Positions 58,789-64,000 of a stretch of DNA of 64,000 nt are shown piece by piece. A program made the translations under genes and the position numbers. A model generated the notes under the pieces. The model was not told where the DNA came from and did no database searches. It saw nothing but the letters and a program-made list of their open reading frames with translations. The DNA is taken from contig JACWEI010000004.1 of assembly GCA_014653625.1 (NCBI GenBank), forward strand, positions 1 to 64,000, given 5' to 3'. This DNA comes from Pelagibacterales bacterium SAG-MED39. Its GTDB lineage: Bacteria > Pseudomonadota > Alphaproteobacteria > Pelagibacterales > Pelagibacteraceae. The stretch's first letter is position 1. Every line of letters begins with the position of its first letter.

Positions 58789-59673
58789 TTATTTTACAAG
58801 AAAATTCACTTTTTTATTTGATAGATTTAAATGAATTTTTTTATATGAACCAAAATTATCTCCATCAATTTGAACTGGTATCAAATCATTTCCATCAATA
58901 GTAATGTTTTGTGAATAAGTAGTAATAACACTTTTGTTTTTACTTAAATCACCATTAAGAATTATTAAGAATATAGAATATAATAAACTGATCCTAGTCA
59001 AATCCTTAAAAATATAGGTGACTAATTTATCTTCAAAAATATTTGTTTTATTTATTTTATGATGTCCAGCGTAATATTTGGTATTTGATGATAATATCCA
59101 GTCTGCTTGATAAAATTGCCCATCAAAAGTTACATTTAATTTTTTATTATTCATAAATAAGAAATATTGAAAACCTTTGATACCGAAAATAATTTTACCA
59201 AGAATTTTTTTAATTTTTGAATTAATTGAATGAACAATTTTTGCATCCCATCCTATACCAGCCATTAAAAAGAAATAATTCTCGTTAATTTTTACAAGAT
59301 TAGAGGATTTATAATTATTAGAAACCAACACATTTACTATATCATCAACTTTTTTATTCATTGATAATTCAGCTTGAAGTAAATTTGCAGTGCCAGCAGG
59401 AATATAACCAATAGCAAAATCGTCTTTAAAATTAAAATTATTTTTAATTAATTCATTAATTGCAAAAGAAACTGATCCATCTCCACCAGCTACTATTAGT
59501 CGATCATAATTTTTTTGATTAAAATCTTTAAAAATTTTCTTAGCTTGATTTATTGTTTTTGTCTCAAAGTAGTCAACAGAATTGTTTTCTTTTAACTTAG
59601 ATAAAACTCTATTTATGAACTTTGATTTTCTTCCTGAAGAAGAGTTTAGATTGTAAATCAAACAATATAACAT
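58789..59673 (-). CDS. diacylglycerol/lipid kinase catalytic-domain protein (DAGK/YegS family)
   Basis: YNLNSSSGR; VAGGDGSVSFAINEL; GYIPAGTANLLQAEL. Confidence 0.88.
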   Translation of the reverse strand: MLYCLIYNLNSSSGRKSKFINRVLSKLKENNSVDYFETKTINQAKKIFKDFNQKNYDRLIVAGGDGSVSFAINELIKNNFNFKDDFAIGYIPAGTANLLQAELSMNKKVDDIVNVLVSNNYKSSNLVKINENYFFLMAGIGWDAKIVHSINSKIKKILGKIIFGIKGFQYFLFMNNKKLNVTFDGQFYQADWILSSNTKYYAGHHKINKTNIFEDKLVTYIFKDLTRISLLYSIFLIILNGDLSKNKSVITTYSQNITIDGNDLIPVQIDGDNFGSYKKIHLNLSNKKVNFLVK

Positions 59674-59691
59674 AATTATTCCTTAAAAAAT

Positions 59692-59709
59692 TTTTAACAA
59701 ATTTGTAAC
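59692..59709 (+). promoter_or_regulatory. candidate Pho box driving the PlcP-like gene
   Basis: TTTTAAC-AAAT-TTGTAAC, 7-4-7 direct-repeat architecture, 62 bp before the ATG. Confidence 0.55.
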
Positions 59710-59740
59710 ATTCAAGTGAGATAACAATTAGATGATTCGT

Positions 59741-59758
59741 GTTACAGTTGTGTTAAAA
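59741..59758 (-). promoter_or_regulatory. candidate Pho box driving the lipid kinase gene
   Basis: Minus strand TTTTAAC-ACAA-CTGTAAC, 67 bp before the lipid kinase ATG. Confidence 0.55.
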
Positions 59759-59771
59759 AATGGTTTTTTAA

Positions 59772-60584
59772 ATGCCTAACATACTTAAATATAAAAGTAT
59801 TTTTATTTCTGATGTACATTTAGGTACTAAGGGTTGTCAGGCAAATAAACTTTTAGAGTTTTTCAAAAACTCAAGATCTGAAAATCTTTATCTTGTAGGA
59901 GACATTATAGATATCTGGGAAATGCAAAAAAGTTTTTTTTGGCCTCAAGAACATAATGATGTAATTCAAAAAATTTTAAGAAAAGCAAGACATGGTACTA
60001 AAGTTTTCTACATTATGGGTAACCATGACGAAATGTTAAGAAAATTTATTCCAATGCATTTTGGTGACATCCATATGGTTAATAGAGTTATTCATGAAAC
60101 AAATGCTGAAAAAAAATATCTCGTTGTTCATGGTGATGCTTGGGATGGTGTTATGAAACATGCTAAATGGTTATCTAAACTTGGATCAATAGCCTACAAT
60201 TTATTGTTAAAACTAAATGTAATAATTAACTTCTTTAGAAGGTTGAGAGGAAAAGAATATTGGTCTCTTGCAAAATTTTTAAAATATAAAGTCAAAAACG
60301 CAGTTAAATATATTGGTGAATACGAAAAGACTGTATCAGATTATGCAAAAAGAAAAAAATTTGATGGAATTATTTGTGGTCACATCCATCATGCTGAGGA
60401 TAGAGATTTTAATGGGGTCAATTATTTAAATTGTGGAGACTGGGTAGAATCTTGCACTGCATTAGCTGAAAATTATGATGGTAGTTTTGAAATATTATAT
60501 TGGGACAAAATAAGAGAACAATATTTAGACGCTAAAGAAATAATTAAACCAATTAAAACCGAAGAATTAAAAAAAGCTTCATAA
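59772..60584 (+). CDS. calcineurin-like metallophosphoesterase, PlcP-type (LpxH-fold) candidate phospholipase C
   Basis: SDVHLGTKG, GDIIDIWE, MGNHDEMLR, VHGDAWD, GHIHHAE metal-binding motifs; next to glycosyltransferase and phoR; lpxI present elsewhere in the window. Confidence 0.82.
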   Translation: MPNILKYKSIFISDVHLGTKGCQANKLLEFFKNSRSENLYLVGDIIDIWEMQKSFFWPQEHNDVIQKILRKARHGTKVFYIMGNHDEMLRKFIPMHFGDIHMVNRVIHETNAEKKYLVVHGDAWDGVMKHAKWLSKLGSIAYNLLLKLNVIINFFRRLRGKEYWSLAKFLKYKVKNAVKYIGEYEKTVSDYAKRKKFDGIICGHIHHAEDRDFNGVNYLNCGDWVESCTALAENYDGSFEILYWDKIREQYLDAKEIIKPIKTEELKKAS

Positions 60585-60587
60585 TTA

Positions 60588-61595
60588 ATGAAAATATTAA
60601 TCGCAACAGATGCATATTTTCCACAAGTAAATGGTGTCGTAAGAACCTTACATGAAACAGGCAATGTATTAAAAGAAGAAGGTCATACTATAGAATATAT
60701 TACACCCGACTTATTTTTAACTTTTCCGATGCCGAAATATAATGAAATTAGATTATCTATTAATGTTTGGCCAAGAGTTGGTAATTTGATAAAGAAAATA
60801 AAACCTGATGCAATTCATATCGCTACCGAAGGCCCTATAGGGACTATGGCAAGAAGATATTGTTTAAAAAATAATCTAAAGTTTACTACGAGTTTTCATA
60901 CAAGATTTGATAAATATCTTAAACTTTACTTTCCTATTATACCTGCAAAATGGGCTGAAAAATTCTTAGCAAACTTTCATAACAAGGCTGAGAGAATTTT
61001 AGTAACAACAGAATCTATGAGAAAAGAATTAATCGATATAGGTATAGATAATAATAAAATGATCACTTGGACTAGAGGAGGAAATCATGGAGCTTTTAAG
61101 AGCCCGAAAAAAATTGATTTACCTCATAAAAGACCGATTTGGATTTATGTTGGAAGAGTTGCAGTTGAAAAAAACATAAGAGCTTTTTTAGAATGTGATT
61201 TAGAAGGTACAAAAATAATTATAGGAAAAGGACCCGATTTAAAAAAATTAAAAAAAGAATTCCCTAAAGACATTTTTTTAGGAGAAAAAACCAATGGTGA
61301 ATTAGCATCACATTTTGCATCCTCTGATGTTTTTGTTTTCCCTAGTAAAACAGATACATTTGGAATTGTAGTTACTGAGGCTTTAAATTGTGGAACACCT
61401 GTTGCTGCTTATCCTGTTCCAGGTCCTAAAGATATATTTGAAGGCTCCAAAATAAATTGTTTAGATGATGATCTTAAAGTTTCAGCCCAAAAAGCTTTAA
61501 AAGTTGACAGAAACGATTGTCTTGAATTTGCAAAAAAATTCACTTGGGAAGAAACAGCAAAAATATTTTTTAATAATATTTCACCAAATCATTAG
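60588..61595 (+). CDS. GT4-family glycosyltransferase, Agt-type diacylglycerol glycosyltransferase candidate
   Basis: ATDAYFPQVNGVVRTLHET; YVGRVAVEKNI; FPSKTDTFGIVVTEALNCGTPVAAYPVPGP. Confidence 0.82.
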   Translation: MKILIATDAYFPQVNGVVRTLHETGNVLKEEGHTIEYITPDLFLTFPMPKYNEIRLSINVWPRVGNLIKKIKPDAIHIATEGPIGTMARRYCLKNNLKFTTSFHTRFDKYLKLYFPIIPAKWAEKFLANFHNKAERILVTTESMRKELIDIGIDNNKMITWTRGGNHGAFKSPKKIDLPHKRPIWIYVGRVAVEKNIRAFLECDLEGTKIIIGKGPDLKKLKKEFPKDIFLGEKTNGELASHFASSDVFVFPSKTDTFGIVVTEALNCGTPVAAYPVPGPKDIFEGSKINCLDDDLKVSAQKALKVDRNDCLEFAKKFTWEETAKIFFNNISPNH

Positions 61596-61659
61596 TTAAT
61601 TTTTCTTAATTTGTTTGCATTAAAAAGTGTAATGATGCAAAATTAAACCATCTAAATTT

Positions 61660-62805
61660 ATGGAATATTTCATCATTCTACTTATAGTTGTTATAGTTTA
61701 TCTCCTATATTTACTTAATCAAAAAAAAAACAAATCAATAAATACCGCTACAATAATTAATAAAAGAGAAGAAAAAACTAAAAGAGTAATTATTGATGAA
61801 CTTGAGGATCAGTTTTTTGCATTAAATAAATTTAACATAATTAAATATGCCAATCCAAGTGCATTAAAAAGATTTGGAAGTAATTTAATTGATAAAAACA
61901 TATCTTCTGTAATTCGAAAACCAGAATTAATAGAAAATATTGAAAAAGCTATAGTTGAAAATATAACAAAAAGTATTGATGTTGAAATAAACTTGCCATC
62001 ATATCAATTTTATAAAATTTATATAATTCCTGGCCCAACTCATTTATTTACTGAACCAGATTCTGTTGTGTTATTTTTAAAAGATTTTACTGAAATTACA
62101 AAAGCACAAAAATTTAAGACTGATTTTGTAGCCAATGTAAGCCATGAATTAAGAACACCTTTGATGGCTATCAAAGGATCTTTAGAAACTATCGAAGGTC
62201 CAGCGTCTGATGATGAAAATGCTAAAAAAAAATTTATGAAAATAATGAATGATCAATCAAATAGAATGGAAAATTTAATTAATGATCTTTTAATACTCAC
62301 AAGAATTGAATTAGAAGAACACATAAGGCCAAACTCTTTTGTTGATATAAATGATCTTTTCAAAACAATCATCAGTAATTTTGAGATTGTTTTAAAAAAA
62401 AAGAAATTAAATATTAATTTATCTCTCGCAAATCCAACAATTGTTATTGGAGATGAAAAAAAATTACAAACTGTTTTTTCTAATCTTCTAGATAATGCAA
62501 TTAAGTATTCAAAAGAAAATAAGTCTATTTTTATATCAAGCAAAATTAGCGACGGTAAATTGTTAGAAAAAAATTTTATGATCAGTGTTAAAGACGAAGG
62601 TGTTGGAATTCCTCAAAGATATATTTCTAGAATTACAGAAAGATTTTTTAGAGTAGATCTTGAACAAAGTAACAAGGTTAGTGGAACTGGTTTAGGATTA
62701 GCTATTGTTAAACATATAGTTACTCAACATCGTGGACATTATGAGATTCTAAGTGAGGAAAACCAAGGAACTGAAATTCAAATTTATTTACCAGCAAAAA
62801 CTTAA
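61660..62805 (+). CDS. phoR: phosphate regulon sensor histidine kinase
   Basis: N-terminal TM, PAS-like region, DFVANVSHELRTPL H-box, GTGLGLAIVKHI; near pstS. Confidence 0.87.
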   Translation: MEYFIILLIVVIVYLLYLLNQKKNKSINTATIINKREEKTKRVIIDELEDQFFALNKFNIIKYANPSALKRFGSNLIDKNISSVIRKPELIENIEKAIVENITKSIDVEINLPSYQFYKIYIIPGPTHLFTEPDSVVLFLKDFTEITKAQKFKTDFVANVSHELRTPLMAIKGSLETIEGPASDDENAKKKFMKIMNDQSNRMENLINDLLILTRIELEEHIRPNSFVDINDLFKTIISNFEIVLKKKKLNINLSLANPTIVIGDEKKLQTVFSNLLDNAIKYSKENKSIFISSKISDGKLLEKNFMISVKDEGVGIPQRYISRITERFFRVDLEQSNKVSGTGLGLAIVKHIVTQHRGHYEILSEENQGTEIQIYLPAKT

Positions 62806-62895
62806 ATTTAAAAAGTATTATATTGTAATAGTTTTAGAAGGTTTTTTTAACAATTCTTTACTTGATTAATGTTAATCTTTTAATTAATTTTTTAT

Positions 62896-63504
62896 ATGGT
62901 TAAAATATTCAAAAATATTTTGATTTTTGCTTTTTTATTAAGCTCTATAACAACAAGTGTTTTTTCTAAAGATATCACAACATTATTAAGAAACCAGCAA
63001 CTTACAGTTTTTGATATTGGAATTTTTAGATTAGAAGCAGATTTAAAAACTGCATATCCTTCTATTAAAGATCATTTAGAAGTTGCTGAAGCTGAATTTT
63101 ATACAGACGTAGTTACCTCGTATTCTAAAAATTCAATTGATTTAATTGTTTCTGTTCCTATGAATAAAAATCTCAAGAAGGAAAATTATTTTTCAGATTC
63201 TTTTAGATGTAGGAATATTTTTAATTCTGTAAGAGATTTTTTATTGAGGAATGAAAATTTGAGTAATTACAGATATACTATGGCTACAAGTTATTTAACC
63301 TCTATATTTTCAACCCCAAGTTCATGGCCTAGCTGGAGATATGATGAAGAAATTAGAGAAGAATTAGTAAACTTAGTAAAACTAGAAATAACTTTACGTC
63401 CAAGCAATGAACTCGCACTTAATGAACAGGTAAACCCTGTTTCATGTATTGGTGGCCTAGAAACTGATATTGATCAGATAACTATATCAAAAAAATACAA
63501 CTAA
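62896..63504 (+). CDS. uncharacterised secreted protein between phoR and pstS
   Basis: N-terminal signal peptide (FAFLLSSITTSVFSK); two Cys in the mature region; no family recognised. Confidence 0.8.
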   Translation: MVKIFKNILIFAFLLSSITTSVFSKDITTLLRNQQLTVFDIGIFRLEADLKTAYPSIKDHLEVAEAEFYTDVVTSYSKNSIDLIVSVPMNKNLKKENYFSDSFRCRNIFNSVRDFLLRNENLSNYRYTMATSYLTSIFSTPSSWPSWRYDEEIREELVNLVKLEITLRPSNELALNEQVNPVSCIGGLETDIDQITISKKYN

Positions 63505-63514
63505 AAAGTTACCT

Positions 63515-63543
63515 TTTTAACAAAAGTGTAACAATTCTGTAAT
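63515..63543 (+). promoter_or_regulatory. candidate three-repeat Pho box upstream of pstS
   Basis: TTTTAAC-AAAA-GTGTAAC-AATT-CTGTAAT, 11-bp period, 70 bp before ATG 63614; TATACG at 63563. Confidence 0.7.
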
Positions 63544-63613
63544 ATTAAAGATTCAATAAATTTATACGAGTCAGACATCTTTTAATTAATAAATAACGAA
63601 AGGATTAAAGATA

Positions 63614-64000
63614 ATGAAAAAACTAACTATAGTAATTGCTTCTTTAGTTGCACTTTCAATTGCAACTGTTGCTCAAGCAAGAGATCAAATTAAAATAGTT
63701 GGTTCTTCTACGGTATTCCCTTACGCAACAGTTGTTGCTGAAAGATTTGGTGGTTCAGGATTTAAAACTCCTGTAATCGAGTCTACTGGTACTGGTGGTG
63801 GAGCTAAACTATTCTGTGCTGGTGTAGGTGAACAACATCCAGATATAACAAATGCATCAAGAGCTATGAAAGATAAAGAAAAAGCTCTATGTAAGAAAAA
63901 TGGTGTAAATGAAATCGTTGAGATCGTAATTGGTAACGATGGTATTACATTAGCTTACAGCAAAGATGCAAAACCAGTAAACTTTACTAAAGAACATTTG
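63614..64000 (+). CDS. pstS: phosphate ABC transporter substrate-binding protein PstS (3' truncated by window edge)
   Basis: Signal peptide then IKIVGSSTVFPYATVVAERFG; ESTGTGGGAKLFCAGVGE; ITNASRAM. Confidence 0.93.
   Translation, partial: MKKLTIVIASLVALSIATVAQARDQIKIVGSSTVFPYATVVAERFGGSGFKTPVIESTGTGGGAKLFCAGVGEQHPDITNASRAMKDKEKALCKKNGVNEIVEIVIGNDGITLAYSKDAKPVNFTKEHL

Follow-up and report, generated by a model that had tools for sequence, protein, structure and literature searches.

A predicted lipid-renovation module with a divergent lipid kinase gene in the phosphate island of a probable HIMB59-order bacterium

The paired enzymes PlcP and Agt have been linked to phosphorus (P) starvation in SAR11 strain HTCC7211, Agrobacterium and Erythrobacter, and in both HTCC7211 and Erythrobacter plcP is followed by agt (PMC4796936, PMC8231724). 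A pair of the same type lies near the end of the DNA analysed here, a stretch of 64,000 nucleotides (the window) from contig JACWEI010000004.1 of Pelagibacterales bacterium SAG-MED39. The window locus shares with those systems the enzyme families and the functional residues and, by prediction, the P-starvation link. However, its plcP-agt pair is joined to phoR and pst genes and is flanked by a divergent lipid kinase gene. The word "kinase" occurs nowhere in PMC4796936, and PMC8231724 draws the pathway without a diacylglycerol (DAG) kinase.

Three further reports bear on this arrangement. In Pseudomonas depleted of inorganic phosphate (Pi), PlcP and DagK are both raised and are grouped as lipid remodelling; the proteins are called PHO-dependent, DagK not being among those absent from the phoBR mutant (PMC5082522). 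That case differs from ours in that no divergent PlcP-Agt-DAGK locus was described, the organism is of another class, and there was no DAG assay. Among SAR11 genomes, genes named "diacylglycerol kinase catalytic domain protein", "metallophosphoesterase" and "glycosyl transferase group 1" were reported in HTCC7211 only, and these three were over-represented, together with C-P lyase genes, at BATS, in a low-phosphate sea (PMC3686209). Finally, the flexible phosphate islands fGIp-C, -D and -E of HIMB59 have already been published (PMC10734472). They match the window locus in gene set and position (pstSCAB, phoU, phoB, phoR, ppk, SixA, a glycosyltransferase, "LpxH", "RfaG" and a diacylglycerol kinase), and they likewise have smaller versions without the extra genes; the island is thus previously known under other gene names. 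In that paper, however, PlcP is named LpxH and Agt is named RfaG, the kinase and glycosyltransferase are listed without a direct P-related function, and the text searched is silent on lipid remodelling, on the promoter box described below and on a class-wide link between kinase and plcP.

We consider it probable that the window holds a Pho-regulated membrane-lipid renovation module, built into the phosphate-uptake genes of a bacterium of the order HIMB59, with the kinase as a DAG branch. The gene identities, the gene order and its conservation, the shared box and the linkage of the kinase gene to plcP are observed in the DNA. From these we infer what the enzymes act on, how the genes are regulated in vivo, and the DAG branch. 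During P starvation, PhoR/PhoB would induce plcP-agt and pstS, and probably the kinase gene on the divergent side as well. PlcP would cut the phosphate head group from phospholipids, leaving DAG, and Agt would add glucose, galactose or glucuronate to that DAG to give phosphorus-free glycolipids. The kinase would return unglycosylated DAG to phosphatidate, which would cap DAG build-up and allow a chosen phospholipid to be rebuilt. The class-wide pairing of the kinase gene with plcP is the new element here.

Gene order and family assignments of PlcP, Agt and the lipid kinase

The kinase gene (58789-59673, minus strand), plcP (59772-60584, plus strand), agt (60588-61595, plus strand), phoR, a gene for a secreted protein and pstS form an unbroken run of six open reading frames (ORFs). 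A first-pass annotation of this DNA had claimed just such a contiguous set, and our check of the window agrees with it in ORFs, strands, and Pfam and NCBIfam families. Since the same gene order is kept in related genomes, the arrangement is not due to chance. The kinase gene and plcP are separated by a divergent spacer of 98 bp, and only 3 nt lie between the plcP stop and the agt start.

The 270-amino-acid plcP product matches Pfam Metallophos with 50 bits. An iterated PlcP profile gave it 420 bits and gave Escherichia coli LpxH 36 bits, both profile and reference group having been built from homologues called PlcP by similarity and an agt neighbour, not from characterised PlcP. The metal-site motifs SDVHLG, GDIID, GNHDE, HGD and GHIHH are all kept. 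In a tree, the protein joins rhizobial and other PlcP, while LpxH is set off by a very long branch. Membership of the PlcP clade of phospholipase C-type metallophosphoesterases is therefore supported, and hydrolysis of phospholipids to DAG is the predicted activity. Profile score, tree and motifs bear out the PlcP assignment of the first-pass annotation, and there is no clustering with LpxH. In two other genomes, plcP has one in-frame stop (L276:2181-3029 in G354 and C2:93905-94681 in G361); these copies could be pseudogenes or sequencing errors.

The 335-amino-acid product of agt, the gene next after plcP here and usually class-wide, matches Glyco_transf_4 with 78 bits and Glycos_transf_1 with 66 bits. 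The DAG glycosyltransferase of HTCC7211 is GTcp, whose functional residues have been probed by mutation and docking (PMC8231724). All 15 of the residues compared are identical in the window protein and carry the same numbering (G16, L56, G82, G85, H104, T162, R163, R190, K195, D256, T257, F258, G259, E264 and W320). Most are near-invariant across 120 homologues, so the match shows that the protein belongs to the family and has an intact site; it does not reveal a sugar preference. We conclude that an Agt/GTcp type is supported for this GT4 protein, with sugar transfer to DAG as its predicted reaction. GTcp residues and gene position are in keeping with the earlier Agt call, and the protein does not cluster with unrelated GT4 enzymes.

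Two variants of Agt were seen elsewhere. The second family of the HIMB59 order has Cys at the position of the catalytic His104, within a YCTKF motif (L031, L032, L033, L034 and L035); these Agt proteins, from genomes without detected DAGK or DgkA, may differ in function. In genome G330 (L224 / L289), agt is divergent to a DAGK gene, no plcP was detected in the genome, and the position of Asp256 is Glu.

The 294-amino-acid kinase belongs to the DAGK family (DgkB/YegS-like), scoring 80.4 bits on DAGK_cat against a Pfam cut-off of 23.6, and its gene is the sole DAGK_cat gene found in the source genome. DgkB (2qv7) is its best match in the PDB; YegS is far weaker. With DgkB and E. coli YegS it shares the DAGK_cat fold family and the GGDG and GTxN motifs, but it has Asp (DGD) where they have Glu (DGE), at an aligned position that we take to be the catalytic base. 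That Asp is present in 55 of 58 plcP-linked kinases. The motifs GGDG, GTAN and PxQxDGD are common to the window kinase and the plcP-linked kinases of other Alphaproteobacteria, and GGDG is invariant.

Linkage of the kinase gene to plcP and a shared promoter box

Within the genus, DAGK_cat genes occur in 14 of 61 genomes, and every kinase gene whose surroundings were read lies at the island beside plcP (the weakest is a contig-end fragment there). When 37 of the genomes were searched for both genes, all seven with the kinase also had plcP; the sole plcP genome without the kinase has a contig that ends 70 bp before plcP. The kinase was not found in the closed and nearly complete genus genomes that have the small version of the island.

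Does the pairing extend beyond this genus? We surveyed 288 evenly drawn alphaproteobacterial genomes, which held 104 strong plcP places, and counted a DAGK gene within 3 kb as a neighbour. At least 49 of the 104 plcP genes have one. Among the matches listed, all 49 adjacent DAGK genes are divergent and immediately upstream of plcP, and the linked pairs span, by our count, about 31 families; agt comes next after plcP in most linked loci. A kinase tree places all plcP-linked kinases on one side and leaves unlinked paralogues from the same genomes outside; the linked copies cluster far beyond chance. A single origin of the linked kinases as a clean clade was not supported, the tree showing 13 label changes.

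The rhizobial plcP loci in our set have no kinase, which may explain why work on model organisms missed the pairing. A search of a library of open-access papers turned up no description of paired kinase and plcP genes. On balance we lean, with some hesitation, towards regarding the divergent DAG-kinase/plcP-agt arrangement under phosphate control as an old class-wide alphaproteobacterial unit, overlooked for this reason, that would form a two-way branch to glycolipid or phosphatidate.

The window also contains three exact copies of a direct repeat with an 11-bp period, TTAACA-N5-GTAACA, which resembles a PhoB box. Two lie in the spacer between kinase gene and plcP, one facing plcP (59694-59710, plus strand) and one facing the kinase gene (59740-59756, minus strand); the third is upstream of pstS (63517-63533, plus strand). 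We drew up the pattern by eye from these very promoters, so the window count by itself is circular, and the actual tests are the genome-wide count and a sister genus. The 927-kb source genome has four exact copies, three of them at this locus. In related genomes, the exact copies in the island number 3 of 3 genome-wide in G029, 2 of 2 in G061, 1 of 1 in G080 and 1 of 2 in G078, and the pstS-side copy is present in G029, G061 and G078 as well. No exact copy was found in the nearly complete G012, G270 and G351, relatives without plcP or kinase. The sister-genus genome G172, which played no part in deriving the pattern, lacks plcP and kinase, and its sole box genome-wide precedes an operon of ArsC-like, aquaporin-like and phoR-related genes. 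Allowing two mismatches, the plcP-facing box is present at 23 of 23 loci of the order.

The canonical E. coli Pho box had no good match in the window; the order uses a TTAACA/GTAACA form. In other Alphaproteobacteria, the canonical box (up to 3 mismatches) occurs in 17 of 61 kinase-plcP spacers against 1 expected from shuffles, and before plcP without kinase in 16 of 53 against 0.6 expected; unlinked kinases have it less often (2 of 21). A scan for generic sigma-70 promoters and terminators was uninformative, with fewer promoter-like sites than in shuffles. The shared box supports phosphate control of the plcP-agt, pstS locus, with induction by PhoB as a prediction. The first-pass annotation had described a phosphate-starvation module; that description gains the shared box before kinase/plcP and pstS, while its induction keeps the status of a prediction.

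In G172, the genes before phoR (L316:1539-2602) resemble those for an arsenate reductase of the ArsC type and for an aquaporin. Published islands name WzB and GlpF at the corresponding position (PMC10734472). An ArsC-like and aquaporin-like pair would suit arsenate entering with phosphate.

Alternative readings and the fate of diacylglycerol

The published names offer a quite different account, in which the phosphoesterase is LpxH and the glycosyltransferase is RfaG, lipid A and lipopolysaccharide (LPS) core enzymes placed in a phosphate island. These are automated names (PMC10734472). The window protein does match the two NCBIfam LpxH models weakly, and relatives do make lipid A, as LpxC is present in 10 of 11 genomes; however, its 50 and 40 bits fall far short of the equivalog cut-offs of 134 and 190, and true LpxH is the poor scorer on the PlcP profile. 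LpxI performs the LpxH step of lipid A synthesis. It is present in 11 of 11 genomes searched, the source genome included (C34:24203-24589), so that an LpxH role for the phosphoesterase is unneeded, and small-island genomes without plcP still make lipid A. The complete set of GTcp residues speaks against RfaG. Profile scores, LpxI in the same genome and the GTcp residues together lead us to reject this account, to which we give almost no credence.

Two other accounts accept PlcP-Agt remodelling or leave it aside and concern the kinase alone. Perhaps the kinase acts on phosphatidylglycerol, ceramide or a glycolipid, so that there is no DAG branch point? Members of DAGK_cat do vary in substrate: phosphatidylglycerol is the listed substrate of YegS, and the DAGK-family kinase CpgB of Caulobacter is a ceramide kinase in vivo that takes DAG in vitro (PMC10331486). 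The window kinase, moreover, reaches no NCBIfam subfamily cut-off (101 bits against 118.65 for TIGR00147 and 114 against 385 for PRK13337). Yet no product other than DAG is shared by all plcP-linked contexts; among relatives of solved structure, DgkB and not YegS matches best; and genomes of the genus that lack plcP lack the kinase gene as well. We regard this account as unlikely. Alternatively, the kinase could be a general DAG-housekeeping enzyme that merely adjoins plcP, which would fit the plcP loci that lack it and the genomes that have the same type of kinase without plcP. This we think very unlikely: the kinase was found in no HIMB59 genome with a small island, a closed one included, and adjacent kinases across the class share one divergent orientation without exception among the matches listed. 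DgkA was also considered as a housekeeping stand-in across the order and was rejected, being absent from 13 of 14 genomes tested.

Several observations nevertheless weigh against the kinase as a DAG branch within a renovation module. Because no subfamily cut-off is reached, homology does not fix the kinase substrate, and the HIMB59 kinases group as a single clade, the position of their long branch being unsure. The kinase-facing box, within two mismatches, is present at only 14 of 23 loci of the order and is missing from the more distant ones. Among the matches listed, about half of the plcP genes in Alphaproteobacteria stand without a kinase gene next to them. In the second family of the order, which has plcP-agt, the 15 genomes searched yielded no DAGK_cat, and DgkA is likewise absent from those tested; the kinase is therefore optional. 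Re-phosphorylating DAG also costs phosphate, which is odd in starvation; the step would be easiest to understand if it limited DAG or served recovery.

Still, we prefer the DAG branch, and phosphorylation of PlcP-derived DAG by the kinase is a well-supported prediction. The branch point proposed in the first-pass annotation has gained from the confinement of the kinase to plcP genomes in the genus, from the divergent pair class-wide and from the two expression and abundance reports (PMC3686209, PMC5082522); it has lost by the family with plcP-agt and no kinase, and its DAG step stands as predicted. That annotation was largely right overall, and its PlcP and Agt assignments held in all tests made.

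The phosphate island, its host and its meaning

The source organism most likely belongs to the order HIMB59 (formerly SAR11 subclade V) and not to Pelagibacterales proper. This placement draws on the two-family structure of the order among relatives, on the match to published HIMB59 islands (PMC10734472) and on the closest named contigs, which come from single-cell genomes deposited under the label uncultured Pelagibacteraceae. The "SAR11" label of the first-pass annotation should accordingly read HIMB59.

In related genomes, the slot after valS-ilvD-manC holds either a small island (phoR-pstSCAB-phoU-phoB) or a large one (kinase, plcP, agt, phoR, secreted protein, pst, phoU, phoB, sixA and ppk). 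The phoR gene of the window (61660-62805, plus strand, 381 amino acids) encodes a phosphate-regulon sensor histidine kinase with Pfam HisKA and HATPase_c; it matches TIGR02966 (phoR_proteo) at E 2.6e-83 and 280 bits, under the equivalog cut-off of 334 bits, and its partner gene phoB lies further along the same contig. It is followed by the gene for a conserved secreted protein with a signal-peptide-like start (62896-63504, plus strand, 202 amino acids). Wherever found, this gene is immediately 5' of a pstS of this type of island, and two cysteines (C105 and C184) are invariant. No Pfam family matched the protein, and its predicted model, although confident (pLDDT 83), had no PDB fold match at E <= 0.001. 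The phosphate-binding protein gene pstS (63614-64000, plus strand; PBP_like_2, 77 bits) has its first 129 amino acids in the window and ends at 64645 on the contig, where pstC-pstA-pstB-phoU-phoB-sixA-ppk follow, sixA on the minus strand.

The slot between manC and phoR is variable in small islands, and in some it holds genes that by eye resemble small DMT-type transporters (L092:11973-12812 and L095:12004-12342). In the closed genome G012, which has a small island without plcP and agt, it holds a gene for a DgkA-type DAG kinase (L091:9722-10054), of a fold unrelated to DAGK. This gene gives a hint that phosphorylating DAG is important for the phosphate response, and it is a case in which DAG phosphorylation need not accompany PlcP. 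Between manC and the kinase gene in G029 (L024:1859-7483) are genes that look by eye like LicD, an SGNH hydrolase, a phosphoenolpyruvate (PEP) synthase, a glutamine amidotransferase and a nucleotidyltransferase; together these may form a surface set of phosphocholine type.

Under this analysis, genes that the published HIMB59 study took for LPS enzymes or considered unconnected with P acquire a lipid meaning. Lipid remodelling spares phosphorus in abundant ocean bacteria and affects the amount locked in membranes. If the two fates of DAG are true, the kinase would set the extent of membrane conversion and the speed of recovery when phosphate returns, and the comparative evidence makes this branch point directly testable in culturable Alphaproteobacteria.

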